From NCBI GenBank assembly GCA_014874415.1, contig JACWAI010000084.1, positions 1 to 61,703 on the forward strand: DNA of 61,703 nucleotides. The letters run 5' to 3'. The notes beneath the pieces were generated by a model, which saw only the letters and a list, made by a program, of their open reading frames with translations, was not told where the DNA came from and did no database searches. The stretch comes from Nitrososphaerales archaeon. GTDB lineage: Archaea > Thermoproteota > Nitrososphaeria > Nitrososphaerales > Gagatemarchaeaceae. Below, piece by piece: positions 2,966 through 46,440 of this stretch (its first letter is position 1; each line of letters starts with the position of its first letter). The translations under genes and the position numbers were made by a program.

Positions 2966-3195
2966 GAAGCTAGCGCCTTCGGGAGCGCCTGCGGAGCGAC
3001 TCCTGGTTGGCTATCTGAGCGCAGACAGGACAGACGGGGTGGTTGGACGTTCCATCTAATTGAAGCCTGATCCGGTGAGTTTGACACAACTCTGGCTGAA
3101 CTTGACTCATGGTGGTTTCCGCTTCTGGGCCCTATTAAAGCCATGTAATGCCCTGTCCAAACTCTAATAGACAGACTTCCAGGGTTCCGGGCGAA

Positions 3196-3603: not shown

Positions 3604-3649
3604 CCGGAGACCTCACGCGCACAGCAATGATGTGACAGATGTATCGAAC

Positions 3650-4132: not shown

Positions 4133-4260
4133 GCCTCTCCCGACATGGCGACTCGCTATAAGCACCGGTGTCCTTTCCCATGCATGAGAACGGCGGAGGA
4201 CCGGATTACTTGCCGGGTGGGTAAGACCCTACGGAACCAAGACGAACGCCGCTGTCAGCC

Positions 4261-12841: not shown

Positions 12842-12912
12842 GGAGATGAGGAAGACAGATGCGACCGCTATTACCGGGACTAGGTCCGTGAAGCCCGACC
12901 TCCCGTTTTCCG

Positions 12913-12999
12913 TGTGTTCAAGTGTCGAGATGCGATTGAACAGGACTTGGTTTCCGTCTCGTTCGTTGGGACGTTACGCAGAGAATTTGTGTTCAAGTG
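12913..12999. repeat. 12-bp direct repeat pair flanking the TauE/TDT junction
   Basis: TGTGTTCAAGTG occurs at 12913-12924 and again at 12988-12999, 75 bases apart. On the minus strand it encodes LEH in the broken TauE N-terminal frame at both places. A small duplication or a regulatory repeat are both possible. Confidence 0.35.
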
Positions 13000-14024: not shown

Positions 14025-14034
14025 CCACTGACCG

Positions 14035-26567: not shown

Positions 26568-26617
26568 GTTGGGACGCATTGCCTTTGAGGTCCCGTTAAC
26601 AGGGCGAGCCTCGCGCT

Positions 26618-32893: not shown

Positions 32894-33730
32894 TCATACT
32901 CCGAAGGCCCTGAGTATCATCTCGACCGCGGTGACGGCTAGGACGAGCGCGAAGACCTTCCTGACCGTGGGGTTCCTGGCCCTCAGGAGGAGCCTGGTTC
33001 CGATGAAGGCGCCGATGAGGATTCCTATTGCCACTGGCGCCACTATGAAGGGGTCGACGTCTCCCCTGGCGAAATAGATCCCGGCGCTGGCGGCAGCGGT
33101 GACGCCGATCATGAAGTTCGAGGTTGTCGTCGAGACCTTCATGGGGAGTTTCATGGCGAGGTCCATGGACAGCACCTTGAAGGTCCCGCTCCCGATTCCG
33201 AGGAGACCAGAAATCAGGCCGGCGGCGAACATGCCGACGAGACCGCGCTTGGGACCGGTCGCGTTGTAATCAACGACCGTGCCGTCTGTTTCGGTGTATG
33301 AGCCGCGGAGGGACAGTCGCTTCGCCAGCCCTTGCAGCTCAGGCTTGGGGGGGATGTCCTCACCTAACTGCCTTACCAGGGGCAGCAGAGACACCAGAAG
33401 GATGCCCCCGAAGACGAGCTCCAGGAAGAAAGAGTTGGCGTAGGCGGCCACGGCAGCCCCAAAGATCGCCCCGGCCGTCGTCGCCAGCTCCAGGAACATG
33501 CCTATGCGAAGGTTGGTCATCTTGTCCTTGACGTAGGTCGCAGCCGCTCCGCTCGAAGTCGCGATGACAGAGACGATGCTCGCACCGATTGCCAGGTGGA
33601 TGTCCACCCCGAGCAGGATTGTCAGGATGGGGATGATTATCACACCACCTCCCAGGCCAACTATGGAACCTAGCGCCCCGGCCAGAATCGAAGTGAAGAA
33701 GAGGACTAGGAGGAATTCGCTGCCAAGCAT
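32894..33730 (-). CDS. TauE/SafE-family sulfite exporter
   Basis: This 278-residue protein has two TauE/SafE halves (GSIVGLGGGVIIIPILTILLG and GMFAAGLISGLLGIGSGTFKVL), eight predicted helices, and a short soluble loop between the halves. It is followed by DUF1634 in the same operon. It lies next to the sulfur-oxidation genes, which supports sulfite as its cargo: the Hdr-like system makes sulfite in the cytoplasm. An A-box-like GGGATAAGC lies just upstream of ATG 33730. Confidence 0.85.
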   Translation of the reverse strand: MLGSEFLLVLFFTSILAGALGSIVGLGGGVIIIPILTILLGVDIHLAIGASIVSVIATSSGAAATYVKDKMTNLRIGMFLELATTAGAIFGAAVAAYANSFFLELVFGGILLVSLLPLVRQLGEDIPPKPELQGLAKRLSLRGSYTETDGTVVDYNATGPKRGLVGMFAAGLISGLLGIGSGTFKVLSMDLAMKLPMKVSTTTSNFMIGVTAAASAGIYFARGDVDPFIVAPVAIGILIGAFIGTRLLLRARNPTVRKVFALVLAVTAVEMILRAFGV

Positions 33731-33836: not shown

Positions 33837-34193
33837 TCAACCCTGTTCGTGAATCATCCTTTGTAGCTGGTCGACGAGAAGAGTAAGCCGTTCGTCTGCC
33901 TGGGCGCTCTGGTCGGTCGAATGGAAGAGTTTCGCGTCCACCACCACACCTACCTCCCCAACCTGAGTTGCCTTGAGCCAGGCCGTCAGCCCTTCCCCGA
34001 AGGGAGCGATGGCCGTGTACACCGCCATCCCTCCGATCTCCTCTAGGGCGTCCTCCACCTGTCCGCCTTGGGCTGCGAGGATAGATTTCACCTGAGGGAT
34101 CACGCCCTGAAGATCCACTCCTTCAAAGTGCCTCACGACCCCGACGTGGTCGAGGGTGAAGAAGCGCTCTTCCGCGCGTGCTGCGAAGGTCAT
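33837..34193 (-). CDS. Unknown 118-residue protein ending the hdr operon
   Basis: With ATG 34193 the protein has 118 residues, starting TFAARAEERFFTLDHVGVV. It has no Cys, no membrane helix and mixed alpha/beta prediction. It has no recognisable motif. The gap to the membrane-anchor gene is only 7 bases, so it is the last gene of the leftward Hdr-like operon. The longer frame to 34328 antisenses nothing useful and was not used. Possibly a small accessory subunit of the complex. Confidence 0.6.
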   Translation of the reverse strand: MTFAARAEERFFTLDHVGVVRHFEGVDLQGVIPQVKSILAAQGGQVEDALEEIGGMAVYTAIAPFGEGLTAWLKATQVGEVGVVVDAKLFHSTDQSAQADERLTLLVDQLQRMIHEQG

Positions 34194-34200
34194 CGCTTTG

Positions 34201-35040
34201 TCATCTGAATTGGGCGCTGAGCCTTGAGTAGACAACCCATGACGGCCTCCATACGGCGTGGACGAACTTCGTCCAGGGAGCGGCGACAAGCAGCAGTGAG
34301 ATGAAAGCAAGGTGAACCGGATAGGCAACCCAAGTTCCCGTCAGATTTGACGTGTCGGCGAAGGCCTGCACCATGAAACCGGTGAGCGCTGTGCCGTAGA
34401 TCGAAACCAGGAACGCCCAGTCTCCAGCCCTGCTCGCGGACCTCACGTCGGTGTGCACCAGCCTGCGCGTGATGGAAATAGTCAGTCCGGCTATGAGTAT
34501 GATGCCTGTGGCATTGCCGAGCAGACGGATCGGACTCGTTATGAGTAACGGGGTGGCCGCGGAGTTGAAAATCGCGTCGAGCGTGGTAGTGACGGCGAGT
34601 CCGATGAACCCCCACATGGTGAGGAAATGGCTCAGCCACTGCTGGAAGTCCTCACATTCGCCCATCTTCCCGAGGAGGAGGACGTCCTTGAACACCACAG
34701 AGAGCACCTTCCCCCAGCCTTTCGATTCGTTCTTGCTCGCGTCGACCTCGTCGGAGTTGTTGCCCACCGCGTGCAGGATTTCCTGGATGAGGAGTGGGAT
34801 GCTCTTGTTCCGCGTCCTGAAGATGACGCCGACCGCCACCACCGCGGCCGCGGCCAGACCCGAGTAGTCGATTATCGTCTTGTTGAGTACGACGTTCCTG
34901 TTCACCTGGGTCGTCGCCCCGGTGGCGATGGAGTTGAGGTTGACGAAGTAGAGCTGGACCCATACGTATAGGAGGATAGCGACTGAAACGATGGTCACGA
35001 CCCATGGGAGCGCGCTCCGGGAGGGGGTACCGGCCGTCAG
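34201..35040 (-). CDS. Membrane anchor (QmoC/HdrE-like cytochrome b-type) of the Hdr-like complex, CTG start
   Basis: From the CTG at 35040-35038 the protein has 279 residues. The CTG overlaps the stop of the preceding HdrC-like gene as CTGA and gives TAGTPSRSALPWVVTIVSVA, a normal first helix after a basic head. No ATG, GTG or TTG exists upstream of GTG 34998, which would cut the helix. Five to six helices follow, with His pairs (LSHFLTMWGF, VHLAFISLL) able to hold heme. It resembles the membrane part of QmoC, here a separate gene. Confidence 0.75.
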   Translation of the reverse strand: MTAGTPSRSALPWVVTIVSVAILLYVWVQLYFVNLNSIATGATTQVNRNVVLNKTIIDYSGLAAAAVVAVGVIFRTRNKSIPLLIQEILHAVGNNSDEVDASKNESKGWGKVLSVVFKDVLLLGKMGECEDFQQWLSHFLTMWGFIGLAVTTTLDAIFNSAATPLLITSPIRLLGNATGIILIAGLTISITRRLVHTDVRSASRAGDWAFLVSIYGTALTGFMVQAFADTSNLTGTWVAYPVHLAFISLLLVAAPWTKFVHAVWRPSWVVYSRLSAQFR

Positions 35041-35390
35041 CCGCGCCCCTTCCTGATCATGGTCCCTATCGCCTCCATCACACCGCTGGGGTCGACCCCC
35101 TTGGGGCAGACCTCAGTGCAGCGGCCGCAGCTGGTGCAGAGGTAGATGCTGTCCTTCATCTTCTTCACCTCCTGCTCGTAGCCCATCTTCGCGGCGTAGA
35201 TGAAATAGCGGGGGTTGAACGCCGGGTTCTTCTCAGCTACGGGGCACGCGGCGGTGCAGTTCCCGCACTGCCAGCACTTCCCGATGTTGTTCCCCTTGGG
35301 GTGCTCCTTCACCATCTCCAGGAGAGAGTGGTCGAAGTCGCCTATGGTGCGGGGGAGAACGATGAGGCCCCAGCGGCCCGACATGTCCAC
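35037..35390 (-). CDS. Short HdrC-like iron-sulfur protein (QmoC N-terminal-like)
   Basis: From GTG 35390 the protein has 117 residues with two [4Fe-4S] motifs: Cys39, 42, 45, 49 (CWQCGNCTAACP) and Cys85, 88, 91, 95 (CTSCGRCTEVCP), the HdrC/QmoC ferredoxin domain. The frame upstream to 35513 is open and looks coding (KGKFIIERRYIDDDRIIEPE) but holds no ATG, GTG or TTG, so the real start may be further up and non-standard, or the 5' end is disturbed. It is followed by the membrane anchor: together they equal a split QmoC. Confidence 0.8.
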   Translation of the reverse strand: MDMSGRWGLIVLPRTIGDFDHSLLEMVKEHPKGNNIGKCWQCGNCTAACPVAEKNPAFNPRYFIYAAKMGYEQEVKKMKDSIYLCTSCGRCTEVCPKGVDPSGVMEAIGTMIRKGRG

Positions 35391-35508
35391 CCCGCCTGAT
35401 TCGAGCTTCTCAGGCTCGATGATGCGGTCGTCGTCGATGTACCGCCTTTCGATTATGAACTTCCCTTTCTCGTCCTTCTTCTTGGGTCTCTCTTCCTCCG
35501 GCGAGAAG

Positions 35509-36567
35509 CTACACCTCTAGTTTCGGCGCGAGCCTTCTTCCGAACTTGACTGCGGCCATGGCAGCGGCGGAACCCTCTGCCAGCGACTCTTCGATGGACA
35601 TGGGGGTCACGCAGCACCCTGCGAGGAAGATCCCCTCCTTCGTCGACTCCGTGTGGATGTTCGGGTGCATCGGCGCGAGGAAGCCGTTCTCGTTCAACTG
35701 CAAGCCCAGGGTGCCTGCGATCTTTTTGGTACCGGGGCCAGGCTCGATGCCCACGGCGAGGACGACCATGTCGAAGAGCACCTCGAAGGGACCGCGCACC
35801 AGCGTGTCCTCCCCCTTGACCAGGAGCTTCTCGCCTGTGAAGTAGACCTCGGCGACCCTTCCCCGGATGTAGTTGATTCCGTACTTCTCCATGCTGTCCC
35901 AGTAGAGCTTCTCCCACTGGCCTGTGGTCCTGATGTCCATGTAGATCATGTAGAGTTGGACGTCCTTGATCAGCTCCTTCATCTCGATGGCCTGCTTGAT
36001 GCTGACCCCGCAGCAGACTGTGCAGCACCAGGGGTTGGTCGCCTTGTCGCGAGAGCCGACGCAGAATATGAAGGCGACGCGCTTGGGGACCTTCCCGTCG
36101 TGCCCCACCACCCTCCCCTCCTTCAGCATGCCCTCGAGCTCGTTGATGCCGATGACGTTTGGCGCCCTGCCGTAGCTGTACCGCGGGTCCACGCGTGCGT
36201 CGAAGTGCTCGAAGCCCGTCGCCACGATTATTGACGAAGCCCGCTTCTCGACGAATGCGCCGCCGTCGTTGCGCCCTATCACCACCCGGAAGTTCCCCGG
36301 GGGGCCGTCGCAGACGTCGACAAAGGCGTCCTTGTGGACTGCTATCAGCGGGTTCGATCCGACGGATGAAAGCAGAGGGCCCATGACCTCCTCGGCCGGC
36401 CTGAGCTCGGGTGCGAGCAGCTTGTACTTCCAGCGAATGGGGGCCCCGCCCAGTTCGTTCCTCTTCTCAACGAGAATCACCTTGGTGCCGAACTCCGCCA
36501 GGTCGACGGCTGCCCTGAGCCCCGACGGGCCGGCGCCGACGACGAGGACTGGAAGGTCTTCAGCCAC
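35509..36567 (-). CDS. HdrA-like FAD/iron-sulfur subunit
   Basis: From GTG 36567 (MAEDLPVLVVGAGPSGLRAA) the protein has 352 residues. It has the FAD-binding fold, EKRNELGGAP, and the Cys cluster FIFCVGSRDK...CCTVCCGVSIKQA, a HdrA-type [4Fe-4S] site. The short length without extra ferredoxin domains fits sHdrA/QmoA-like proteins rather than methanogen HdrA. The GTG is 3 bases after the HdrB stop. It is the electron-entry or bifurcation subunit of the complex. Confidence 0.88.
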   Translation of the reverse strand: MAEDLPVLVVGAGPSGLRAAVDLAEFGTKVILVEKRNELGGAPIRWKYKLLAPELRPAEEVMGPLLSSVGSNPLIAVHKDAFVDVCDGPPGNFRVVIGRNDGGAFVEKRASSIIVATGFEHFDARVDPRYSYGRAPNVIGINELEGMLKEGRVVGHDGKVPKRVAFIFCVGSRDKATNPWCCTVCCGVSIKQAIEMKELIKDVQLYMIYMDIRTTGQWEKLYWDSMEKYGINYIRGRVAEVYFTGEKLLVKGEDTLVRGPFEVLFDMVVLAVGIEPGPGTKKIAGTLGLQLNENGFLAPMHPNIHTESTKEGIFLAGCCVTPMSIEESLAEGSAAAMAAVKFGRRLAPKLEV

Positions 36568-36569
36568 GA

Positions 36570-37862
36570 CTACGTTCCCCCTTCCGGCACTCTCACCCTG
36601 GGCTGAAGCCTGCGCTTCGGCGGGGTGATGTAGACTGGCTTCATCCCCTCCTTGAGTTTCTGCACGTAGTCCTTGTACTCGGTCTCGGCAGTCTGCCAGT
36701 CGATTCCCATCTTGTCTAGGAGGCCCTTCCATTCCGCCAGGTGCCAGTGGAGCTGGCAGATCTTGAAGGGGTGGGCGCCCATGGCAAGGGCTGCGAATTG
36801 GGCGTCGGAGAGGACCGGCACAGTCTCCTTGTATCCGTGGGCCAGGGTCACGACCTGGCTCTTGTCAAGGGTAGTCACGCATCCGGTGTCGTGGACTAAG
36901 AGGACGTCGGCTTTGGTCTCCCTGACTATAGGCTGTATCTTCCTGAAGTAAGCGAAGGACCTACTGATCTCCCTCTCGGTGAGGATGTGCCTGAAGCCGA
37001 AGCCGCAGCAGTCGGACCAGGTGCTGTACTCCTTGACGTCGACTCCCAGGGCCATGGCGACGCTCGTCGTGGGTGCAGGCCGCATTCCCCCCATGATGGT
37101 TGAATCGTAGGTGAAGTCCTCGGCCATCAGCTTGTAGGTGTGGCATGCGGCGTGGACGGCAGCTTTAATGTTGGAGACATCGATCTTCTTCTTCTCCGCG
37201 ATGTCGTTCCTCTTGACGTGCATCCATTCGCTGTAGTGGACGAGCTCCTCAGGCAGGACGAGGTCCCTGTCTATCTTCTTCAGAATCGCCTTGACCTGGT
37301 CCCGAACTTCCCTGCTCATGACCATCAGATACCGAACTTCCTTGTAGTCCCCGTAGCTGGTACCACAGTGGATCAGCGGGTAGGCGTTCTTCTCGTAGGC
37401 GGCGTGCATGTTCCTGGCGAAGACCGCCGAGAGGGCCACCGGGTTTGAGGTGCCTGAGCCGTAGTAGTTCCAGGCTGTGCACGACGTCTGGTTGGTGTCG
37501 TCGACGTATGGAATCTTGAGTTCGGCCATTATCCAGTAGAGGGCCGAGATGTACCCTGGGATGTGCCCGCACTGGCCGCAGGACTTGTGCTGCCACAGCT
37601 CTACTGTTGGAATCTTCTTGTCCCTCCCGCTGAGCGTCTTGACCGTCGCCGGCTCGTATTCATCCCCTGCATGATGGACCATGATGTCGCCGGACCGCTC
37701 GAGATCCTTCATCTTCTGGAGCATCAGGAGGTAATCCTCCACCTTGCCGTAGGCAAGCGTGGCCTTCCTGTCCATGGAGAGCTTCTCGAGGTACTTCAGG
37801 TCCACGGTCTTGACCTCGGCATCTTCGCCCTTGCCCAGGTTCAGGATCTGACTGTCTGACAA
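36570..37862 (-). CDS. HdrB-like subunit with CCG domains
   Basis: This 430-residue protein has Cys-rich catalytic-type motifs: SCGQCGHIPGY, TSCTAWNYYG, HAACHTYKLM and SDCCGFGFRH, then HDTGCVTTL. The last three are the CCG-domain ligands that bind the non-cubane 4Fe-4S cluster in HdrB. It is longer than methanogen HdrB (about 290) and fits the long HdrB2 type of the sulfur-oxidising complex. It abuts the HdrC gene end (stop at 37863, start 37862) in one operon. Confidence 0.88.
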   Translation of the reverse strand: MSDSQILNLGKGEDAEVKTVDLKYLEKLSMDRKATLAYGKVEDYLLMLQKMKDLERSGDIMVHHAGDEYEPATVKTLSGRDKKIPTVELWQHKSCGQCGHIPGYISALYWIMAELKIPYVDDTNQTSCTAWNYYGSGTSNPVALSAVFARNMHAAYEKNAYPLIHCGTSYGDYKEVRYLMVMSREVRDQVKAILKKIDRDLVLPEELVHYSEWMHVKRNDIAEKKKIDVSNIKAAVHAACHTYKLMAEDFTYDSTIMGGMRPAPTTSVAMALGVDVKEYSTWSDCCGFGFRHILTEREISRSFAYFRKIQPIVRETKADVLLVHDTGCVTTLDKSQVVTLAHGYKETVPVLSDAQFAALAMGAHPFKICQLHWHLAEWKGLLDKMGIDWQTAETEYKDYVQKLKEGMKPVYITPPKRRLQPRVRVPEGGT

Positions 37863-38639
37863 CTACTTCTGCACCCCCAGCTCTTCGCCGGCCTCCTCTA
37901 CCATCTCGGCCACGTCCTTGAGCGTCTGCTTCACCATGTCGGTGACGCCCGACTCTTTCTCAATCGTGATAAGCTCCTGCATTGTCCTCTCGGGGACGTC
38001 CCAGCTCTTGTCGATGACCCCCGCCAGGGTCTCGACAGGGACAGCCGCTCTTTCTTCCCTAAGGTGCTTTGCAAGGTCCGCCTTTCCTCCTCCCCAGTCC
38101 CTGAAGGGTGCGTTGGAGCTGTGCATGTCAGGGGTAATCTGGGTCCCAGTCGTCATCACCTTGTAGAGGATCTTGCTGTAAGGCTCGAGGGACCGCTTCG
38201 CGGAGCTGAGCCCGTGCTTGACGGCACTTTCCTTGAGCATGGCCACGAGCCCTCCGGGATTGTTCTTCGCCGGGCACACCTCCCAGCAGGAATAGCACTG
38301 GAAGCACGACCAGATGTATTGGTCCATCATCTGGTAGAGAAGCTCGGGCTCGTCCTTGGCGTGCATCACCTTCTGGACCACGATCCTAGGGGCGAAGTCT
38401 ACGAGCTTGAACGGCGGGCAAACCGACGTGCAGTTCCCGCAGTTGATGCATGCGTGGTAGAAGTCTTCGTAGCGGGGGTCGGTCGTGACCTCTTCGACGA
38501 TCCTCTTCATGATCTTCCTGTCCCCGGTGCGCGCGTTCTCCGCCTCCCAGTGGAGGCCCGGGAGCCCGCTGTAGTGCCAGCCGTCCTCGTTCAGCTTACC
38601 AAGCCGTGATGCCACCTTCACGGTTTTGGTGACATACAT
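37863..38639 (-). CDS. HdrC-like iron-sulfur subunit, first gene of the operon
   Basis: This 258-residue protein has ferredoxin motifs Cys64, 67, 70, 74 (CINCGNCTSVCPP) and Cys112, 115, 118, 122 (CFQCYSCWEVCP), as in HdrC. It carries a ~130-residue helical tail. It transfers electrons between HdrB and HdrA. The ATG at 38639 lies 24-35 bases downstream of the TATATATA-rich promoter at 38663-38674, so it is likely leaderless. It heads the leftward operon C-B-A-C'-membrane-unknown. Confidence 0.88.
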   Translation of the reverse strand: MYVTKTVKVASRLGKLNEDGWHYSGLPGLHWEAENARTGDRKIMKRIVEEVTTDPRYEDFYHACINCGNCTSVCPPFKLVDFAPRIVVQKVMHAKDEPELLYQMMDQYIWSCFQCYSCWEVCPAKNNPGGLVAMLKESAVKHGLSSAKRSLEPYSKILYKVMTTGTQITPDMHSSNAPFRDWGGGKADLAKHLREERAAVPVETLAGVIDKSWDVPERTMQELITIEKESGVTDMVKQTLKDVAEMVEEAGEELGVQK

Positions 38640-38662
38640 TCAAGAATCATAATATCCGAAGT

Positions 38663-38674
38663 GATTATATATAG
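38663..38674. promoter_or_regulatory. AT-rich divergent promoter of the two sulfur operons
   Basis: GATTATATATAG lies between hdrC (start 38639) and dsrE (start 38735). On the minus strand it is at the right distance for a leaderless hdrC mRNA. For dsrE it would give a leader of about 35 bases. AATCA (38645) and TGATT (38662) around it form a short inverted repeat that could be an operator. Confidence 0.5.
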
Positions 38675-38734
38675 TTTGGGAGGTTCCCTTACTGATTAGG
38701 GATGTGACTTTCAACGGTCACTGGCTGACAGGAT

Positions 38735-39109
38735 TTGGCTGACAAAAAGTACCTTTTCGTCGTGAGCACGGGGATGGCAGAGCCGAAGAAGGCGTTTTCT
38801 CCATTCTACTACGCGAACGCCAGTGCGGCCATGGGGTTCGACACGACGATGTTCTTCCTCGCAGAGGGACCTTCCTTGATCAAGAAGGGGGTGGCGGAGA
38901 GCCTGAGGACCACCGGCGACGGGGAGCCACTGAGGAAGGTGATCGACATTTCCGTGCGCAGCGGGGTCAAGATGCTATGCTGCAGCACGGCAGCCAAGGT
39001 GATTTGGAAGATGAAAGACGACGATCTGATCGAAGGGGTCAGCTTTGCCGGGGCTGCGACCCTCCTGGAAATGACCGCGGACCCCGAAACTGTGGTGCTC
39101 TACTTCTGA
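38735..39109 (+). CDS. DsrE-family sulfur-transfer protein
   Basis: From TTG 38735 the 124-residue protein shows the DsrE fold: KYLFVVSTGM, AASAAMGFDTTMFFLAEGPSLIKKGV and the C-terminal Cys region SGVKMLCCSTA. The Cys pair in that loop is where DsrE3-type proteins carry persulfide sulfur. It starts the rightward operon and would donate or accept sulfane sulfur with TusA and the lipoate-binding protein. Confidence 0.82.
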   Translation: MADKKYLFVVSTGMAEPKKAFSPFYYANASAAMGFDTTMFFLAEGPSLIKKGVAESLRTTGDGEPLRKVIDISVRSGVKMLCCSTAAKVIWKMKDDDLIEGVSFAGAATLLEMTADPETVVLYF

Positions 39110-39122
39110 TTCCAAGGAGACC

Positions 39123-39563
39123 GTGAGCTTGCCCTACAGAGGGTGCAGAGTCCCCGAAGACCTGCTGTATGACGTGGGCTTCCATGTGTGGGCCAGGGTG
39201 GAAGGTCGGGTGGCCACTGTCGGGGCCACTGAACCCGCCCAGGCGTATGCGGGAGAAGTCATATTCATCAAAGCGAAGCCCGTCGGGACCAAAATCGAAC
39301 GAGGGGCAATCCTGGCGACCATTGAGAGCGCCAAGTTCATGGGGCCCATGAGGGCGCCCCTGACCGGGACCGTGGCCGAGGTCAACTCCGAGGTGATATC
39401 CAAGCCTTCCCTGATGAACAGCGACTCGTACGCAAACTGGGTTGTGAAGCTCACGGCGGAGAAGCTTGACGACGAGTTGAAACTCCTGATCCCGGGCAAA
39501 GAAGCGGCCGAAAAGTACAAGCCCATCATCGATGAATGGGGAGTCGACTGCGGAAAAACCTGA
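39123..39563 (+). CDS. Lipoate-binding GcvH-like protein (LbpA)
   Basis: The 146-residue protein is a GcvH fold: DLLYDVGFHVWARVEGRVATVG, then TIESAKFMGPMRAPLTGTV, with the likely lipoylated Lys71 in ESAK, and NSDSYANWVVKL at the end. No other glycine-cleavage gene is present, and the context (hdr, dsrE, tusA, lipoate ligase) matches LbpA of the sHdr pathway, where the lipoate carries sulfur during oxidation to sulfite. GTG 39123 starts 13 bases after dsrE; its 3' end overlaps the ligase gene by 28 bases. Confidence 0.87.
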   Translation: MSLPYRGCRVPEDLLYDVGFHVWARVEGRVATVGATEPAQAYAGEVIFIKAKPVGTKIERGAILATIESAKFMGPMRAPLTGTVAEVNSEVISKPSLMNSDSYANWVVKLTAEKLDDELKLLIPGKEAAEKYKPIIDEWGVDCGKT

Positions 39564-40252
39564 AAACACGACTGTTCGACGCTCAGTCACTCTTGTCCAG
39601 CAGGGAGGTGGTAGTCTTCTTCGACAAGGGCACGGACCCGACGGAAAACCTGGCGCGGGAGGAAAGAATCTTCGACCGCGTCGATGGTGGCTCCCTTCCC
39701 GAGCTAGTCCGCTTCTGGGTGAATTCCGAGTGCCTCGTCAGGGGAAGGGCAAAGAGCGCAAAGTACGGCTGGTATAACGAAGAGCTCGCGCAGCAGATGA
39801 AGGTCCCGGTCATAGAAAGGGAAACGGGAGGCGGGGTGGTCTACCACGACGAAGGCAACCTGAACTGGAGTTTCTTCCTGAAGACTTCAGGGGCGTTCAT
39901 GTCGCCGACTGCGGCCTTCGATCTGGGTTCGAAATATGTGATAAGGGCTCTCGAGAGCCTCGGCGTCAAGGCCAGGTTCTCCCCGCCGAACAGAATCGAC
40001 GTCCTGAGCCGCAAGGTCTCAGGGATGGCCGCCAGGTCCACGGTCCGCACATTGTTGGTTCATGGGACGCTACTCTTGCACTCCGACCTGCAGAAGCTGA
40101 ACCTCCTATGCATCCCACCAGCCGGCTGCCCCCCGGTTTCAAACATTAGCGAGTGGAGGAGGGATATCGATACGGCGGGTGTGGTACGAGCTGTCGTGGA
40201 GGTCCTCGAAGATTCTGGGTTCCAGGTCAGAATGAAGGACTCGGTCGAATGA
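39536..40252 (+). CDS. Lipoate-protein ligase-like enzyme (BPL/LplA/LipB family)
   Basis: The 238-residue protein has the family signature ERETGGGVVYHDEGNLNWSF (RxxGGGxxxHD) and GMAARSTVRTLLVHGTLLL with the catalytic region. It should attach lipoate or octanoate to Lys71 of the LbpA protein directly upstream. The 28-base overlap of the two genes implies coupled translation and a dedicated pair. ATG 39536 is the annotated start; one further in at about 39566 is possible but would shorten the N-terminus. Confidence 0.83.
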   Translation: MGSRLRKNLKTRLFDAQSLLSSREVVVFFDKGTDPTENLAREERIFDRVDGGSLPELVRFWVNSECLVRGRAKSAKYGWYNEELAQQMKVPVIERETGGGVVYHDEGNLNWSFFLKTSGAFMSPTAAFDLGSKYVIRALESLGVKARFSPPNRIDVLSRKVSGMAARSTVRTLLVHGTLLLHSDLQKLNLLCIPPAGCPPVSNISEWRRDIDTAGVVRAVVEVLEDSGFQVRMKDSVE

Positions 40253-40344
40253 GGAATCTTCTGCGGGAGAGGAGCAAAATCGGCTCGGAAGACCTTCGCC
40301 TGTGTGCGATTCACACCGGTTCTAAGGTTTAAATATTCGACTAT

Positions 40345-40358
40345 CCTAATATGTTAGG
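40345..40358. promoter_or_regulatory. Inverted repeat at the tusA transcription/start region
   Basis: CCTAA-TATG-TTAGG is a perfect 5+4+5 inverted repeat overlapping the possible ATG at 40351. An AT-rich TTTAAATATT A-box sits at 40328-40337. The repeat would lie at the likely transcription start, a good place for a repressor, perhaps the ArsR-type protein at 41205. Confidence 0.45.
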
Positions 40359-40620
40359 GACGAGTTTGGCGACAACCGATGCCAAGCCGGCGATGGTTCT
40401 TGATACGAAAGGACTTCTATGCCCCGCTCCGGTAGTGAAGACGAGCCAGGCTGTCAAACAGATTCAGGTCGGGGATGTCCTGCAGGTTCTGGCCACCGAC
40501 CCTGGTTCGAAGCCGGATCTCACTTCTTGGAGCAGGATGACGGGCAACGAACTCTTGAGCGTCACAGAGGATGGAGGTTCTCCGAAGGTGTACACGTTTC
40601 TCATAAGGAGGATGAAGTAG
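40351..40620 (+). CDS. tusA: TusA-family sulfur carrier
   Basis: The 89-residue frame from ATG 40351 contains LDTKGLLCPAPVVKTSQAVK with the CPxP motif (Cys24-Pro27). VGDVLQVLATDPGSKPDLTSW follows, the TusA fold and length. TusA carries persulfide sulfur to the Hdr-like system. TTG 40366 (MATTDAKPAM) is an equally good start, since ATG 40351 sits inside the inverted repeat. Downstream dsrE-like starts 5 bases after the stop. Confidence 0.88.
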   Translation: MLGTSLATTDAKPAMVLDTKGLLCPAPVVKTSQAVKQIQVGDVLQVLATDPGSKPDLTSWSRMTGNELLSVTEDGGSPKVYTFLIRRMK

Positions 40621-40624
40621 CAAG

Positions 40625-41131
40625 TTGACCCTGACGACGCAACAGTCGAAGGAAGCGGAAATCGGGAAAAAGGCCAACCATCTGGTCCTGGTAGTGACCA
40701 ACGACACCATAGACAAGGTCTACCCGCCGATGATCCTCGCGACCACGGGCGCGGCGTCGGGGATGGACGTCGACATCTACTTCACTTTCTGGGGACTGAA
40801 GCTGCTCGACAAGAAAGGCCAGACCCAGACGAAGATAGCGTCCGTGGGCAACCCCGCCCTCCCGATGCCTAACATCATGGGGATGCTTCCGGGGATGACC
40901 GCCATGGCCACGAAGATGATGAAGGGCAAGATCAAGAAGTACTGGCCGACGATTCCTGAGATGATGCAACAGGCCAAGGACATGGGAGTAAGGTTCCACG
41001 CCTGCTCCCCGACCATGGGGCTCATGGGGATGACAGACAAGGACCTGATACCGCTCACCGATTCAATCTGCGGCGCGTCGACCTTCCTCGACTGGGCGAC
41101 CGACCCGAACTCGGTTACCATATTCACCTAG
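40625..41131 (+). CDS. DsrE/DsrF-like (DrsE_2) sulfur-transfer protein
   Basis: From TTG 40625 the 168-residue protein has HLVLVVTNDTIDKVYPPMILATTGAASGMDVDIYFTFWGL and a C-terminal FHACSPTMGLMG and DSICGASTFL (each stretch cited only by its core). The two Cys are at the positions used by DsrE-type proteins for persulfide. The mid-part is Met-rich. It is a second, longer DsrE-type partner to 38735, next to tusA. Confidence 0.8.
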   Translation: MTLTTQQSKEAEIGKKANHLVLVVTNDTIDKVYPPMILATTGAASGMDVDIYFTFWGLKLLDKKGQTQTKIASVGNPALPMPNIMGMLPGMTAMATKMMKGKIKKYWPTIPEMMQQAKDMGVRFHACSPTMGLMGMTDKDLIPLTDSICGASTFLDWATDPNSVTIFT

Positions 41132-41162
41132 GCACAAGTCGTTTCGAGCTCGGCGCCGGCTT

Positions 41163-41186
41163 AATTCTTCCTCGGGAGAATTTTGC
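41163..41186. terminator. Hairpin with T-run between convergent genes
   Basis: AATTCT...AGAATT (41163-41168 with 41177-41182) forms a small stem with a G/C-rich loop. It is followed by TTTT. It lies between the convergent dsrE-like and ArsR-type genes and could end both transcripts. Confidence 0.4.
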
Positions 41187-41204
41187 CCAGATCAGGCCAA
41201 AGGC

Positions 41205-41528
41205 CTAGGCGAGTATCTTGGCCTGGCCCATCCTGGTCTCGCGGACGACCGCATCGACCAAGTCGTAGGCCTTCAGGACCCTTTGGTCCACCAGTTTGTA
41301 GTACACTAGCCTTCCCTCTCGTCTGGTGCGCACTATGCCGAGCTTCCGCAGGAGCGAAAGCTGCTGCGAGACCGTGGATTGCGTCGCCCCCGTCTCGCTC
41401 ACCAGCCTAGAGACCGTCTTCTCCCCTTCCCTGAAGCCGTCCAGGATTGCGAGCCTCACTGGGTGGGAGAAAGTCTTGCAGAACTCGGCGTGAGCCTGAT
41501 AGATTTCCCAGGCCCGGTGATTCCTCAT
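41205..41528 (-). CDS. ArsR-family repressor, sHdrR-like
   Basis: This 107-residue winged-helix protein has AEFCKTFSHPVRLAILDGFREG, SETGATQSTVSQQLSLLRKLG and the wing RTRREGRLVYYK. It has one Cys (Cys17) and no CVC arsenic site. Bacterial shdr loci are controlled by an ArsR-type protein (sHdrR) that senses sulfane sulfur, so its position between the two sulfur operons suggests the same role. ATG 41528 lies downstream of the inverted repeat at 41555-41588, so it is probably autoregulated. Confidence 0.83.
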   Translation of the reverse strand: MRNHRAWEIYQAHAEFCKTFSHPVRLAILDGFREGEKTVSRLVSETGATQSTVSQQLSLLRKLGIVRTRREGRLVYYKLVDQRVLKAYDLVDAVVRETRMGQAKILA

Positions 41529-41554
41529 CCGTTAGGAGAGCGTCAGCTCTTCTT

Positions 41555-41588
41555 AATAATCGTTCTCCAAGGGTAAGAAGCGATTATT
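41555..41588. promoter_or_regulatory. Operator-like inverted repeat between the ArsR-type regulator and the apr operon
   Basis: AATAATCG at 41555-41562 and CGATTATT at 41581-41588 form an 8-base inverted repeat with an 18-base spacer. One arm overlaps the A-box of the regulator gene (minus strand, 27-34 bases from its ATG), the other the AT-rich box for the rightward apr promoter. Binding would repress both. Confidence 0.55.
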
Positions 41589-41674
41589 AATTCGAATATT
41601 CAGATATCTGCTCAGATGGAGCGGTCGCCCACACCGACCCGAAATGCCGGCAACTTTTCGAGAGGAGGCGCAGA

Positions 41675-42433
41675 GTAGGAACGCCAGCGATTGGTCTCCC
41701 CATAGCGAACGAGGTCATCGACATCGGAAGCTTCGTCATCCTGGCGTTCGTTGTCGTTGGAGTCTACTACAGGGTCAGGAACGGAGCGATTCATCACTTC
41801 GACCGATGGCAGTTGCTTCGGCCCCCGGCGGAACTGGCCGGGAAGGTGTCTTCGACAGGGACTACTGCCAGGAGCTTCTTCGTGGTCCTGCTGAGAGACG
41901 TATTCGCCACGAAAGTCCTCGGCACCTGCAGCAGGCTGAAGCGTGCGTCCCATCTGGCACTCTTCTGGGGCTTCGCTTTCCTTGGGATTTCCACGACGCT
42001 CGCGTTCATAACCGACCCCTCGAACACCGTGCTGTCTCTGACAGATCCCGTCAAATTGTTCGGGAACTCGGGAGGGATCCTGGTGGTCGTCGGTTTCATC
42101 CTGATGTTCTACGTCCGCTACAGGGAACAGGTTCCGATCTGGCGCCTGACCCGCTCCGACGTGTTCATGGTCACCCTCTTCCTCACCGTCATCACTGGCT
42201 TCGTCACGCAACAGGCTGTCTACTCCGCCAACGGCTCTGACCTGGTCTCGGACACCTTCTGGCTGCACATGGCCTTCGTGATAGTGCTGCTCGCGACGGC
42301 GCCGTTCACGAAGTTCTTCCACGCGATTTCGAAGCCAGTCTCGATACTCCATGAAGAGGTGGACGCCAAGCTCGGCAAGGAGCCGCTGCTGCCGATGGGG
42401 CCGGGAAACGCGAGGGAAACGGAGGGGAGCTGA
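41675..42433 (+). CDS. Second QmoC-like membrane subunit, 5' end probably shifted by one base
   Basis: The ~250-residue frame has five to six hydrophobic segments (first: VIDIGSFVILAFVVVGVYYR) and His/Arg positions like nitrate-reductase gamma and QmoC membrane subunits. The frame 41675 onward has no ATG, GTG or TTG before 41813 (TTG), which would drop the first helix. Just upstream, ATG 41616 opens 20 residues (ERSPTPTRNAGNFSRGGAE) and stops at TAG 41676; one missing G there would join the two into a single protein from ATG 41616. The stop overlaps the AprB start (TGATG). Confidence 0.65.
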   Translation, partial: VGTPAIGLPIANEVIDIGSFVILAFVVVGVYYRVRNGAIHHFDRWQLLRPPAELAGKVSSTGTTARSFFVVLLRDVFATKVLGTCSRLKRASHLALFWGFAFLGISTTLAFITDPSNTVLSLTDPVKLFGNSGGILVVVGFILMFYVRYREQVPIWRLTRSDVFMVTLFLTVITGFVTQQAVYSANGSDLVSDTFWLHMAFVIVLLATAPFTKFFHAISKPVSILHEEVDAKLGKEPLLPMGPGNARETEGS

Positions 42434-42885
42434 TGCCGACCTTCGTCGACCCAAACAAGTGCGACGGCTGCGGCAAGTGCGTCGACATCTGCCCCAGCGA
42501 CATCATGCACCTTTCCAACAGCATCGTCAGCGGGAGGAAGGCGTTCAACATAGAACCGAACTACTGTTGGGAGTGCTACTCTTGCGTGAAGGAGTGCCCC
42601 CAGCACGCCATCGACATGAGAGGGTACGCTGATTTCGCTCCGCTGAACCACAAGCTTACCGTCCTGAGGGACAAGGAGAAGAACGTGGTGAGCTGGAAGA
42701 TCAAGTACAGGAACGACATGAAGAACGAGTTCCAGTTCCCCATCCGCACCACCGCCTGGGGGTCCATATCGCCTCCTCAGAGCTTCCAGAATCCCTCCGA
42801 TGAAGAATTCAGGTCACAGCTGCTCGCACATGAGCCCGGATACCTGAAATCGGAGAGGGGGCTCGCAACGGCGACCAAGCCATGA
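42433..42885 (+). CDS. aprB: Adenylylsulfate reductase beta subunit
   Basis: This 150-residue protein has two [4Fe-4S] sites: Cys10, 13, 16, 20 (CDGCGKCVDICP) and Cys45, 48, 51, 55 (CWECYSCVKECP). The conserved tail ...AWGSISPP and length fit AprB. It transfers electrons between the alpha FAD and the membrane. It overlaps the previous membrane gene by one base and the alpha gene by four (ATGA), so the three are coupled. Confidence 0.93.
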   Translation: MPTFVDPNKCDGCGKCVDICPSDIMHLSNSIVSGRKAFNIEPNYCWECYSCVKECPQHAIDMRGYADFAPLNHKLTVLRDKEKNVVSWKIKYRNDMKNEFQFPIRTTAWGSISPPQSFQNPSDEEFRSQLLAHEPGYLKSERGLATATKP

Positions 42886-44714
42886 AGACCAAGACAGTCG
42901 ACTGCGACGTCCTGGTAGTCGGGGGAGGGATGGCAGGATGCGGCGCCGCCTACGAAGCCAGGTACTGGGGCCGGGACCTCAAGATCGTGGTGGTGGAGAA
43001 GGGGCACATCGAGAGGAGCGGGGCGGTCGCCATGGGTCTGTCGGCAATCAACTGTTACATGGGGATGCGCTGGAACGAGAACACCCCCGAGGACTTCGTG
43101 AAGTACACTAGGAACGACCTGATGGGACTCGTCAGGGAAGACCTGGTCTACGACATAGCTAGGCACGTCGATTCCACGGTGCACATGTTCGAGGAGTGGG
43201 GGCTCCCGATAATCTACGACGAGCAGACGAAGAGGTACAAGCGCGAAGGGAGGTGGCAGATACTGATACACGGAGAGTCGTATAAGCCCATAGTGGCAGA
43301 AGCCGCGACGAAGGCGGCCGACCAGGTCTACAACAGGGTGATGATTACCCACCTGTTGACCGACGCCGAGGACAGCAACAGGATAGCGGGGGCCGCCGGG
43401 ATAGGGGTGAGGGACGGTGCGCTCTACGTCTTCCGCGCCAAGGCTGTGATAGTCTCTGCGGGAGGCGCCACGCATGTGTTCAGGCCGAGGTCGGTGGGAG
43501 AAGGCGCTGGGAGGACCTGGTACTCTCCCTGGAGCACCGGCTCAGCCTATGCCCTGCTCATCGGGGTCGGAGCCGAGATGACGCAGATGGAGAACAAATT
43601 GGTGGTCACCCGGTTCAAGGACGGATACGGCCCGGTGGGGGCGTGGTTCCTGGCGTTGAAGGCGACGGCCTCCAACGCCTACGGCGAGGACTACGAACTG
43701 AAGTACAAGGAAGAGCAGCGCGCGCTCTATGGAAACTACGTCGACGCGAAGCCCTTCCCGACCTGCCTGAGGAACGACGCCATGCTCAGGGAGATCAAGG
43801 CAGGCCGAAGTCCCATATTCATTCATACAGAGAAGGTCCTCGACACCAGAGAGAAAGAAGAGCTGGGGCATGAAGACTTCCTCGACATGACCATGAGCCA
43901 GACAATCGTGTGGGCTTCCCAGAACATAGACCCGAAGAAGAGGCCCTCCGAGCTTCAGCCTTCCGAACCGTACATAATGGGCTCCCACGCGACCTGTTCG
44001 GGCGCCTGGGCGAGCGGCCCGTCGGACCTCTCGTCCAAGGACTACTTCTGGGGGTACAACAGGATGACGACTGTCCAGGGGCTCTTCGGAGCGGGGGACA
44101 CGATCGGCGGCTCCGCCCACAAGTTCTCGTCGGGATCTTTCACCGAGGGGAGACTAGCAGGCAAGGCGGCCGTCGCCTACATCAGGGAGAAGGCAGCGGA
44201 CAGGAGCCCGTCCCTGGCCGATGGAAAGACGGAGTCTTTGAAGGAGGAGATCTTCAAGCCCATGGAGACGTACAGGCTCGGGAAGAACATGATCACGGGG
44301 GGGACGGTGTCCCCGTTCTACCTGTACGCCGACCAGGGGGTCGTTCGCCTGGAGAAGATCATGGATGAGTACGTCGGCGGCTGGGGGTCGTTCTACATGA
44401 CCAACGAGGTGCTCCTGAACAGGGGGCTGGAGCTGCTGGGGATGCTGAAGGAGGACCTGGGCCAGCTCGGTGCGGAGAACCTTCACCAGCTGCAGAGGGC
44501 CTGGGAGCTGCACCACAGGGTCATGACCGCAGAGGCCGTCCTGCGCCACACCCTCTACAGGAAGGAGACGAGGTGGCCGGGCTACTGCTACAGGTCGGAC
44601 TACCCTGGTCTCGACGACAAGAACTGGCACGTCTTCGTCAACTCGAGGTATGACCCACGCACAGGCGAATGGTCGCTCTTCACCAGGCCCTACGTCCAAC
44701 TCATTGGCGGGTGA
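42882..44714 (+). CDS. aprA: Adenylylsulfate reductase alpha subunit
   Basis: This 610-residue flavoprotein has the FAD motif VLVVGGGMAGCGAAYEA, then ERSGAVAMGLSAINCYMG and ENKLVVTRFKDGYGPVGAWF, which carries the substrate-binding Arg, and GSHATCSGAWASGP and LFGAGDTIGGSAHKF. Length and motifs fit AprA. In the oxidising direction it joins sulfite and AMP to APS. It directly follows aprB and precedes sat with a 4-base GTGA overlap, so substrate channelling to Sat is likely. Confidence 0.95.
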   Translation: MKTKTVDCDVLVVGGGMAGCGAAYEARYWGRDLKIVVVEKGHIERSGAVAMGLSAINCYMGMRWNENTPEDFVKYTRNDLMGLVREDLVYDIARHVDSTVHMFEEWGLPIIYDEQTKRYKREGRWQILIHGESYKPIVAEAATKAADQVYNRVMITHLLTDAEDSNRIAGAAGIGVRDGALYVFRAKAVIVSAGGATHVFRPRSVGEGAGRTWYSPWSTGSAYALLIGVGAEMTQMENKLVVTRFKDGYGPVGAWFLALKATASNAYGEDYELKYKEEQRALYGNYVDAKPFPTCLRNDAMLREIKAGRSPIFIHTEKVLDTREKEELGHEDFLDMTMSQTIVWASQNIDPKKRPSELQPSEPYIMGSHATCSGAWASGPSDLSSKDYFWGYNRMTTVQGLFGAGDTIGGSAHKFSSGSFTEGRLAGKAAVAYIREKAADRSPSLADGKTESLKEEIFKPMETYRLGKNMITGGTVSPFYLYADQGVVRLEKIMDEYVGGWGSFYMTNEVLLNRGLELLGMLKEDLGQLGAENLHQLQRAWELHHRVMTAEAVLRHTLYRKETRWPGYCYRSDYPGLDDKNWHVFVNSRYDPRTGEWSLFTRPYVQLIGG

Positions 44715-45889
44715 AAGCAGTGGAAAACGTGTCGGCGCCAGGGGAACCCTACGGAGGCAGGCTGGTTGACCTCGCGGTACCAGCGGGCGTAGCCGAAGCA
44801 AAGCTGAAAGAAGCGGAAGAGCTGCCGAAGATTTCTCCATTCGTCGACTTCGTATATGACACGGAGAAGATCGCCATTGGCGCCTACTCGCCGCTGGAGG
44901 GGTTCATGGACTCGGCAACATTCCATTCCGTCACCCATGAGAGCCGGCTTCCGAAGGGCCTCCCCTGGACGATGCCAATTGTAATGGCGATTCCGAAGGA
45001 ACAGCTCATGGGTGCGAGTGAGGGGGACACTGTTTCTCTCGCCGACTGGAACGGCGAAATCTTCGCGATGCTGTCGCTGACCGAGATCTACGACCTCCCC
45101 AGGGAAGAGTTCGCCATGGGCGCCTATGGCACAACTGACCCGAACCATCCTAACGTCGGGGACGTCTTCAACAGCTATGGGGACAAGGCGGTCGCAGGGA
45201 AGGTGAGCCTCCTAAGGAGGCTGGAGCTCCCCACCGTCAGCAGCGAGATGACGCCCAAGGAGACGCGCGAGCTCTTCAGGGCCAAGGGGTGGAAGAACGT
45301 CGTCGCTTACCAGTGCAGGAACCCTCCTCACACAGCTCACGAGTACATCCAGAAGGTCTCCCTCGAAAGCTCGGACATCGATGGGCTCCTAGTTCATCCT
45401 GTCATCGGCCGCCTGAAGAAGGGAGACTACAGACCTGGCGTGATAATGGAAGCGTATCGCAAGGTGGTGGACGGATACTACCCGAAGGACAAAGTCGTGC
45501 TTACCTCCCTTTCCATAACCATGCGCTACGCAGGGCCCAAGGCTGCGCTCTTCCTTGCCATCGTACGCAAGAACTACGGGGCGACGCACTACATCGTCGG
45601 AAGGGACCAGGCGGGGGTCGGCAAGTACTACGAGCCCTACGCCTGCCACAGGATCTTCGACCAGTTCAACATAGGCATCACTCCTATGAAGTATCTTGAG
45701 ACGTTCTACTGCAGGGTCTGCCGGGCCATGGCCACCTCGAAGACGTGTCCGCACCCCGAAGCAGACCACCTAGCGGTTAGCCAGACGAGGATGAGACAGC
45801 TGCTGGCCGAAGGCAAAGAGCTCCCTACTGAAATCCTCAGACCTGAGGTCATCGAAGTCCTGAAGAGAGGAGATGTGGTGCTGACTTGA
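44711..45889 (+). CDS. sat: Sulfate adenylyltransferase (ATP sulfurylase)
   Basis: From GTG 44711 the protein has 392 residues. It has YQCRNPPHTAHEYIQKVSLE, the QxRNPxHxxH catalytic motif, and IVGRDQAGVGKYYEPYAC, the GRDHAG loop with His replaced by Gln. In sulfur oxidisers Sat runs APS + PPi to ATP + sulfate. The C-terminal Cys cluster ...FYCRVCRAMATSKTCPH could hold zinc as in some archaeal Sat. The next gene starts in its stop (TTGA). Confidence 0.93.
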   Translation: MKAVENVSAPGEPYGGRLVDLAVPAGVAEAKLKEAEELPKISPFVDFVYDTEKIAIGAYSPLEGFMDSATFHSVTHESRLPKGLPWTMPIVMAIPKEQLMGASEGDTVSLADWNGEIFAMLSLTEIYDLPREEFAMGAYGTTDPNHPNVGDVFNSYGDKAVAGKVSLLRRLELPTVSSEMTPKETRELFRAKGWKNVVAYQCRNPPHTAHEYIQKVSLESSDIDGLLVHPVIGRLKKGDYRPGVIMEAYRKVVDGYYPKDKVVLTSLSITMRYAGPKAALFLAIVRKNYGATHYIVGRDQAGVGKYYEPYACHRIFDQFNIGITPMKYLETFYCRVCRAMATSKTCPHPEADHLAVSQTRMRQLLAEGKELPTEILRPEVIEVLKRGDVVLT

Positions 45890-46440
45890 GGGGGCCCGGC
45901 GTGCCGGAGAATCTGGACGCACTCCTGGACGAGCCGATTGACACCTTCGTCTCCAGGACGTTCTTGAAGGTCCCTTCAGCCGAGACGGTCTCAAGCGCCG
46001 CAAGAAAGATGCAGATGCTGGGTTCCACGGAGGCGGTGGTGGTTCGAGCCGGAGTGCCGATTGGGATTCTTACCGAGCGGGACATCCTCTATGATGTGGT
46101 GGCGGCAGGCTTGGACCCCTCATCCACGAAGGTCGTTGATGTGATGTCGTCCCCCCTCGAGAGCGTCGAGTTCGGGAGCAAGATAAGAGACGCGATAGCA
46201 AAGATGATCGAAATGGGCGCGCGACGGCTGGGGGTGATCAGGAACGGAAAGCTCGTAGGTCTGGTGGTCCAGAAGAGCATCGTCTCGGGAGTCCTTCACG
46301 AGCATGTCCCCCTCGCCGAGCTTGCTTCGCCCGGAGAACTGCGGTGCCCCTATTGCGGAAATGGGTATGGCGAAGGCAGGGCGCTTTCCCGGCACATGGC
46401 CCTTGTACACCTCGGCCTGACCCAGGACGAGAAAACATGA
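45886..46440 (+). CDS. CBS-pair protein with C-terminal C2H2 zinc finger
   Basis: From TTG 45886 the 184-residue protein has two CBS motifs (FLKVPSAETVSSAARKMQ...GILTERDILYDVV and SSPLESVEFGSKIRDAIAKM...GLVVQKSIVSGV). The tail finger LRCPYCGNGYGEGRALSRHM ends ALVH. CBS pairs bind AMP/ATP, both of which are ligands or products of AprA and Sat. Translational coupling to sat by a 4-base overlap suggests an energy or AMP sensor regulating this pathway, through DNA or protein contact by the finger. That role is my inference. Confidence 0.8.
   Translation: MRGPGVPENLDALLDEPIDTFVSRTFLKVPSAETVSSAARKMQMLGSTEAVVVRAGVPIGILTERDILYDVVAAGLDPSSTKVVDVMSSPLESVEFGSKIRDAIAKMIEMGARRLGVIRNGKLVGLVVQKSIVSGVLHEHVPLAELASPGELRCPYCGNGYGEGRALSRHMALVHLGLTQDEKT

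Follow-up and report, generated by a model that had tools for sequence, protein, structure and literature searches.

A membrane-anchored sHdr variant beside AprMBA-Sat: a putative two-stage sulfur-oxidation island in Nitrososphaerales

The standard sHdr cluster runs hdrC1B1A-hyp-hdrC2B2, as given in extracts of PMC6067878. The electron acceptor of the system seems unsettled. For the Sulfolobaceae, beyond which, according to extracts of PMC11323534, no archaeon is known to oxidise elemental sulfur, NAD(P)+ reduction is assigned and the fate of the sulfite is called unknown. On the sulfite side, the gene for AprM stands before aprB in Allochromatium vinosum, and AprM is said to be without similarity to known domains (extracts of PMC3779200). 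Here we consider an island at positions 32894 to 46440 of contig JACWAI010000084.1 of the Nitrososphaerales archaeon assembly GCA_014874415.1 (the window, 61,703 nucleotides in all), in which an Hdr-like operon, the lipoate-binding protein LbpA and an AprM-AprB-AprA-Sat unit (AprMBA-Sat) stand together. At a probability of roughly 0.6 this is a two-stage sulfur-oxidation island around a membrane-anchored sHdr variant, which would hand electrons to quinone through an anchor of its own, with AprMBA-Sat as the second stage.

In the proposed scheme DsrE, TusA and DsrE2 would pass sulfane sulfur to the dihydrolipoyl arm of LbpA, and HdrC1-HdrB1-HdrA would oxidise the bound sulfur to sulfite. Electrons would exit via a half-length HdrC2 (HdrC2s) into a cytochrome-b-type membrane subunit (MembA), found in place of HdrB2 and Hyp, with reduction of quinone. 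AprB-AprA would then convert sulfite and AMP to adenosine 5'-phosphosulfate (APS) with electrons passing to quinone via AprM, Sat would convert APS to sulfate and ATP, and a haem-copper oxidase would be able to take the electrons. The gene content, the anchor type, the conserved motifs, the lack of a DsrAB match and the recurrence in other archaea can be read from the sequences; the direction, the electron acceptor, the order of steps and the gain of ATP we infer. The scheme, quinone route included, appears the most likely explanation because HdrA is of sHdr type and HdrB falls in the matching clade, LbpA holds its lysine and cysteines, and HdrC2s with MembA covers the QmoC profile; because MembA and AprM of the window each carry three histidines and the layout is found at 9/9 archaeal-type and 0/65 judgeable bacterial loci; because whole islands recur, the genome and its sister species gave no DsrAB match and a member of the same genus has a Dsr module at the same place; and because a molybdopterin oxidoreductase lies beside sHdr where AprA was undetected and COX1 was detected in all seven genomes tested. 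In its working the island seems to be sHdr plus AprMBA-Sat, and its Hdr part fails to show the standard features Hyp, HdrB2 and LipS1/LipS2. A wider claim, that a membrane-bound lipoate-sulfane:quinone oxidoreductase working through a split QmoC (HdrC2s-MembA) exists in several archaeal lineages, and in one genus has been swapped in place with Dsr, so that either module could feed sulfite to one and the same AprMBA-Sat unit, stands at about even odds.

The genome holding the window (G000; G codes denote genomes and L codes loci) comprises 114 contigs totalling 1.69 Mb, with completeness put at 91.6% and contamination at 3.6%. Its HdrA seems to be of the short sulfur-oxidiser type, matching 6tjr_A with an expect value (E) of 9.4e-80 over 341 of 349 residues; the name of that entry is silent on its origin, and we take it to be the sHdrA of Hyphomicrobium. 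HdrC1 and HdrB1 adjoin HdrA. HdrB is 50-53% identical to the Sulfolobaceae-like loci (six loci of one family in the phylum, a label of our own attribution) and 70-90% identical to nine related loci, with a distant match of 48 bits to methanogen HdrB. For the HdrB tree 40 of 86 qualifying rows were used, namely one bacterial locus in three taken in numerical order, L089, every membrane-type locus and the six Sulfolobaceae-like ones, and L085 was dropped because of a stop codon. In this tree nine rows of membrane type cluster together (100/99), with the Sulfolobaceae-like sHdrB1 rows as neighbours (95/76), a sister relation that is unsure given a long-branch warning between the two groups. This grouping of HdrB and its distant methanogen match speak against a methanogen placement, one of the outcomes that a reading of the window from its sequence alone had named as refuting it. 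A methanogen-type HdrABC was ruled out, since the short 6tjr aligns with almost all of HdrA and only weak matches link HdrB and HdrC to methanogen proteins, as was QmoABC, since the operon has one short HdrA and no pair of QmoA and QmoB.

That sequence-only reading had also called the sHdr set complete, and this does not stand. Read gene by gene, the operon has no Hyp and no HdrB2 (the remaining genome was not searched for them); in their stead come the half-length HdrC2, the NarI/QmoC-like MembA and a small conserved protein, unkU. HdrC2s has 117 aa and is about 35% identical to the N-terminal half of the Sulfolobaceae-like HdrC2. At the six Sulfolobaceae-like loci C1-B1-A is followed by open reading frames (ORFs) of about 250, 230 and 300-330 aa, sizes that fit Hyp, HdrC2 and HdrB2, and the HdrB query matched HdrB2 in three of the six. 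HdrC2s and MembA between them cover positions 14-360 of the QmoC profile (360 positions) with a gap at 92-114, each scoring far below the cut-off for a whole QmoC, and together look like a split QmoC. A second HdrA of 858 aa, with two HdrA-like halves, lies elsewhere in the genome (L188, G000:C70:1-15000, at 1854-4427) beside oxoacid:ferredoxin oxidoreductase-like and HdrD-like genes, and the same cluster is carried by G016, a genome of the same genus; its neighbours, judged by eye, make it part of a 2-oxoacid:ferredoxin oxidoreductase/HdrD-like cluster, and it was set aside as another system.

The membrane-anchored layout recurs. Named genomes were scanned with a four-member HdrB alignment and the best 80 of 219 confirmed candidate loci were kept; L103 and L155 were without a usable HdrA match and L097, L101, L134 and L135 without HdrC2, leaving 74 loci, nine of membrane type and 65 labelled bacterial. 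The nine related loci, among those best 80, come from WH2.bin77 (the sister species, G013), YF1.bin89, Marsarchaeota G2 ECH_B_1, Centralia_MAG_53, Caldarchaeum SZUA-1515, Nitrososphaeria DRTY1_bin.15, Marsarchaeota G1 BE_D, BP7.bin41 (in a record named Deltaproteobacteria) and Calditenuaceae SKYB46. In all nine HdrA and HdrC2 are 115-171 nt apart, Hyp and an HdrB2 match are absent and unkU is present; the membrane subunit is matched in eight, the ninth (L080) having a divergent ORF at that place. At the 65 bacterial loci where HdrC2 could be read, MembA and unkU were never matched, 60 have Hyp, one has a separate HdrB2 match, and the gap between HdrA and HdrC2 is 706-1546 nt; one of these bacterial arrangements (L125, from family search) is of the Etf kind, with a CCG domain fused to HdrC2. 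The archaeal-type variant of the Deltaproteobacteria record (L085, JAJXZF010000060.1), whose HdrB and MembA contain stops and whose LbpA has no cysteines, may reflect mis-binning of its contig or a decaying transferred copy.

The whole island with Apr is seen in the window, in WH2.bin77, DRTY1 and Marsarchaeota G1, and in Centralia, where AprA is cut off. The joining of sHdr and AprAB-Sat at one contiguous archaeal locus, singled out by the sequence-only reading, is thus present but not unique, the more so as at three bacterial loci (L100, L127, L150) a single contig carries sHdr together with AprBA and two HdrA-like genes, the Apr partner there resembling Qmo. What is new is that the Hdr module is anchored, and not the sHdr-Apr joining as such. 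Among the matches listed from the open-licence PMC literature none, in the extracts returned, describes an sHdr with a QmoC-like anchor or an sHdr in Nitrososphaeria, and PMC10833072 and PMC10640624 hold no word beginning with "hdr". The island is neither chance nor an assembly chimera, because the sister species carries the same genes on a single contig, with one block inverted and running to AprA at the contig end, and because the G+C level is even at 57-61% across 32-48 kb.

In LbpA the lysine corresponding to Lys71 is kept in 85 of 85 rows, Cys8 in 71 and Cys143 in 70, and the window has all three; residue 71, already picked out as the lipoyl lysine, thus comes with both diagnostic cysteines. 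A genome search for LipS1/LipS2 had also been proposed. Queries taken from L108, a bacterial locus, and identified as LipS1- and LipS2-like only by motif and position, gave no good match in G000, G013, G016, G009, G240 (Caldarchaeum) or G308 (Calditenuaceae), except that LipS2 matched weakly in G000 (E 1.3e-4), and in the Sulfolobaceae-like control G094 gave E of 4.8e-64 and 9.5e-65. LipA scores over its cut-off in G000, G013, G016, G009 and G240, and not in G308 or G094. Because LipS1/LipS2 were not found and LipA is present, LbpA may receive its lipoate through LipA or from an outside source, in contrast to most sHdr archaea, 88.6% of which have LipS1/S2 (extracts of PMC10332631).

AprA, AprB and Sat of the window keep the identities first given to them, all three scoring over curated cut-offs. 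Across 31 genomes of the genus, G000 among them, a clear AprA is found in six (G000, G009, G013, G016, G018, G029), HdrB in two (G000, G013) and DsrAB in one (G016), and AprM stands before AprB in the five other AprA-bearing genomes. Searches with PF01077 gave no DsrAB match in the 91.6%-complete G000, which extends to the genome what had been noted for the window, none in G013 and two in G016. In G016 (L024, G016:C1:911000-930000) the same TusA-DsrE2-ArsR-AprM-AprB-AprA-Sat block is preceded by DsrA, DsrB and a DsrK-Rieske-like protein, the former two scoring somewhat below NCBIfam cut-offs; by gene order, one module on the sulfite side appears to have been exchanged for the other at the same position. 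The DsrK-Rieske frame itself (L024 7738-9894, 719 aa, beside DsrAB) fuses a DsrK-like protein to a Rieske-type domain resembling the arsenite-oxidase small subunit, and would give a Dsr system an uncommon route for its electrons.

In the Caldarchaeum and Calditenuaceae genomes AprA was not found (G240 and G308 are 88% and 73% complete), and there a molybdopterin oxidoreductase adjoins the sHdr operon with iron-sulfur protein and TauE-like genes near; its dmsA/phsA-type NCBIfam matches are far below cut-offs, and in both lineages it would replace Apr in sulfite oxidation as a Soe-like "sulfite dehydrogenase". These genes lie at L070 4951-9351, where the iron-sulfur protein is NrfD-joined, and at L071 11109-19330, which also holds an SQR/FCSD-like flavoprotein and a YeeE-type Sulf_transp gene. 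The comparison with G016 and the molybdopterin lineages supports an oxidative direction for the island.

The opposite direction seems quite improbable; in it Sat and AprBA would form sulfite from sulfate, and this sulfite would be used or reduced by the Hdr-like complex, with quinol as donor via both anchors. The AprB of the window is without a five-residue loop present in two solved AprB chains, which we take to be those of Archaeoglobus and Desulfovibrio. This loop was proposed to dock Qmo and is absent too from the reductive Caldivirga-Pyrobaculum type (extracts of PMC2211403), so that the loop pattern would suit reduction, as would the service of QmoC-like anchors in sulfate reducers (extracts of PMC10504309 and PMC3779200) and the interpretation as sulfate reducers of related Nitrososphaeria metagenome-assembled genomes with DsrAB, AprAB and Sat (PMC10833072, as excerpted). 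It is opposed by the lack of a DsrAB match in G000 and G013, by the presence of TusA, DsrE2 and COX1, by an aprM-aprB-aprA order with sat nearby that is that of Allochromatium, an oxidiser, and by LbpA and HdrA, which belong to a system serving sulfur oxidation in Hyphomicrobium, as deletion has shown (extracts of PMC6067878). The AprA tree (23 rows, the L173 row retaining one stop and an odd start) puts the window, its genus, DRTY1 and Marsarchaeota G1 in one clade (100/99). Two other families stand apart from it, which we take for Thermoproteales.

Because G009, G018 and G029 have AprMBA with neither HdrB nor DsrAB found (Sat is seen in G009 and G029; G018 is 60% complete), the Apr unit is tied to neither sHdr nor Dsr. 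With the two sHdr lineages in which AprA was undetected and the three TauE-family genes of the window, this would suit two independent neighbours, an sHdr that detoxifies sulfane sulfur and an AprMBA-Sat that handles external sulfite with no joint energy pathway. Such a separation is very improbable, as the modules sit near each other in the window and in G013, DRTY1, Marsarchaeota G1 and Centralia, where internal rearrangements did not part them. G009 (L029, L026) has two different AprA copies, 90% and 84% identical to that of the window, and a contamination of 8%.

Three histidines at NarI-type heme-like places in MembA are common to the window, WH2.bin77, Caldarchaeum, Calditenuaceae and L085 and are predicted heme ligands, and the top seven PDB matches of the MembA structure model are all NarI, with probabilities of 0.98-1.00. 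Against the quinone route weighs, first, that all three histidines are missing in the relatives L079, L080, L081 and L083, and all but one in L084; because of these five, quinone reduction by this histidine site cannot hold group-wide. They would be explained if the Hdr part oxidised sulfur, MembA were a mere tether and electrons went to NAD(P)+ or another soluble carrier, and a membrane-bound sHdr complex of Aquifex is reportedly in print, to go by its title. NAD(P)+ reduction by the HDR complex is moreover stated for the Sulfolobaceae in extracts of PMC11323534. Such tethering is nonetheless unlikely here, since all three histidines are kept in the branch of the window, in Caldarchaeum, Calditenuaceae and L085, HdrC2s-MembA matches QmoC end to end, and family searches gave no NAD-linked partner gene in the island. 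Plausibly the MembA branch of the window carries heme and reduces quinone, and the other branch may be only tethered or on another route. Against the proposed scheme also stand the weak E of the NarI fold match (0.043 or weaker) on a middling model, with a predicted local distance difference test score (pLDDT) of 76.6; the loss of Cys143 from LbpA of the sister WH2.bin77; and the failure to find LipS1/LipS2, usual in sHdr archaea. The absent AprB loop speaks against a Qmo link and, being shared with the reductive Caldivirga-Pyrobaculum type, is no proof of oxidation; the AprA tree is without a proteobacterial reference; and HdrB2, DsrMKJOP and QmoAB were not searched genome-wide with models of their own. 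For unkU neither Pfam, NCBIfam nor PDB gave a sequence match, and its structure model (pLDDT 94.5) has weak SRPBCC/START-like matches.

The genes of the island are listed below; ORFs and family matches bear out the named genes at their positions. Of the QmoC-like anchors placed earlier at each end of the island, both are present and they do not frame it jointly, MembA belonging to the Hdr operon and AprM standing before AprB as in Allochromatium.

Features of the island by position in the window; the left operon reads (-) from HdrC1 down to TauE and the right arm from DsrE to the CBS/zinc-finger protein, with ArsR opposed
Feature	Position	Strand	Evidence
TauE/SafE-family transporter, last gene of left operon	32894-33730	-	PF01925 162.5 bits; also in G013 operon
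unkU, small conserved protein, ~119 aa	33837-34196 (ORF 33837-34328; homology from ~34196)	-	in 9/9 related loci
MembA, NarI/QmoC-like membrane subunit	34201-34998	-	QmoC profile positions 115-360, 100.8 bits; PF02665; three heme-type histidines
HdrC2s, half-length HdrC2, two 4Fe-4S motifs	35037-35390	-	QmoC profile positions 14-91
sHdrA-type flavoprotein	35509-36573 (start uncertain; ORF to 36732, homology from ~36573)	-	6tjr_A match
sHdrB1-type subunit, CCG domain	36570-37862	-	PF02754
HdrC1, two 4Fe-4S motifs	37863-38639	-	family matches and motifs
DsrE-family sulfurtransferase	38735-39109	+	PF02635 49.2 bits
LbpA, lipoate-binding protein	39123-39563	+	PF01597; Lys71, Cys8, Cys143
LplA, single-domain lipoate:protein ligase, 238 aa, one catalytic domain	39536-40252	+	PF21948 128 bits
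TusA sulfur carrier	40351-40620	+	PF01206 73.6 bits; CPAP motif
DsrE2-family protein	40625-41131	+	PF13686 117.3 bits
ArsR-family regulator	41205-41528	-	PF01022; NF033788 over cut-off
AprM, NarI/QmoC-like membrane subunit of APS reductase	41680-42433 (start uncertain; ORF from 41813, frame and homology upstream to ~41680)	+	QmoC profile positions 191-358; three heme-type histidines
AprB	42433-42885	+	TIGR02060, 170.2 vs cut-off 135.65 bits
AprA	42882-44714	+	TIGR02061, 909.8 vs cut-off 641.75 bits
Sat, ATP sulfurylase	44669-45889	+	NF003166 and TIGR00339 over cut-off; 430.3 vs 387 bits
CBS-pair protein, C-terminal zinc-finger-like motif	45886-46440	+	PF00571

The TauE of the left operon is a possible exporter of sulfite or a sulfur compound. 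Its counterpart in G013 (L028 13709-14537) is broken over several frames, perhaps a low-coverage assembly error, and the two other TauE-family genes of the window lie at 12125-14090 and 26600-27520, one of them next to an anion channel of the SLAC1 family. In the ArsR regulator the sole cysteine is residue 17, common to the relatives compared. The CBS/zinc-finger protein is possibly a nucleotide sensor, its tie to the pathway coming from gene order only; a small zinc-finger-like protein before LbpA in a bacterial sHdr locus (L125 18615-18962) recalls its terminal finger.

With an sHdr variant that brings a quinone-type anchor along, the acceptor of the system would become directly testable. 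If the island works as in the scheme, the Sulfolobaceae would be joined as sulfur oxidisers by uncultured archaea from hot springs, Centralia soil and acid mine drainage (habitats in part deduced from the names of records), with substrate-level ATP from Sat. The exchange of Dsr and sHdr within one genus would be a natural experiment on interchangeable sulfite-making modules, and cautions against taking AprAB-Sat in such genomes for sulfate reduction.

Among described systems the window shares HdrC1, HdrB1, short HdrA, LbpA, single-domain LplA, TusA and DsrE-type proteins with standard sHdr-LbpA (Groups I and II in extracts of PMC6067878), and departs from it in an operon without Hyp or HdrB2, where the half-length HdrC2 is followed by MembA and unkU, and in having LipA, with LipS1/LipS2 not found. 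The sHdr with EtfBA (Group III in the same extracts; L125) has the same core and a likely electron route to the membrane, but there Hyp, a fused HdrC2-CCG, EtfB, EtfA and a 720-aa iron-sulfur-CCG protein are found, in contrast to the short HdrC2 and NarI-like anchor of the window. The aprMBA-sat of Allochromatium vinosum (PMC3779200, as excerpted) likewise has aprB-aprA immediately preceded by a membrane gene, a clustered sat and an AprB without the Qmo-docking loop, whereas the AprM of the window matches the QmoC profile with heme-type histidines and its sat is downstream, the comparison being one of gene arrangement. An aprM ahead of aprBA and the loop-less AprB would fit the AprM-linked APS reductases of Apr lineage I of sulfur-oxidising bacteria (SOB). 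The Dsr-Apr island of G016 shares the TusA-to-Sat block, with AprA 91% identical, and differs in having DsrA, DsrB, a Rieske-joined DsrK and a CobB-type protein in place of sHdr-LbpA. With QmoABC, finally, the likeness lies in HdrC2s and MembA, by profile a split QmoC, and the difference in a single short sHdr-type HdrA that stands for QmoA and QmoB, in the company of HdrB1, HdrC1 and LbpA.

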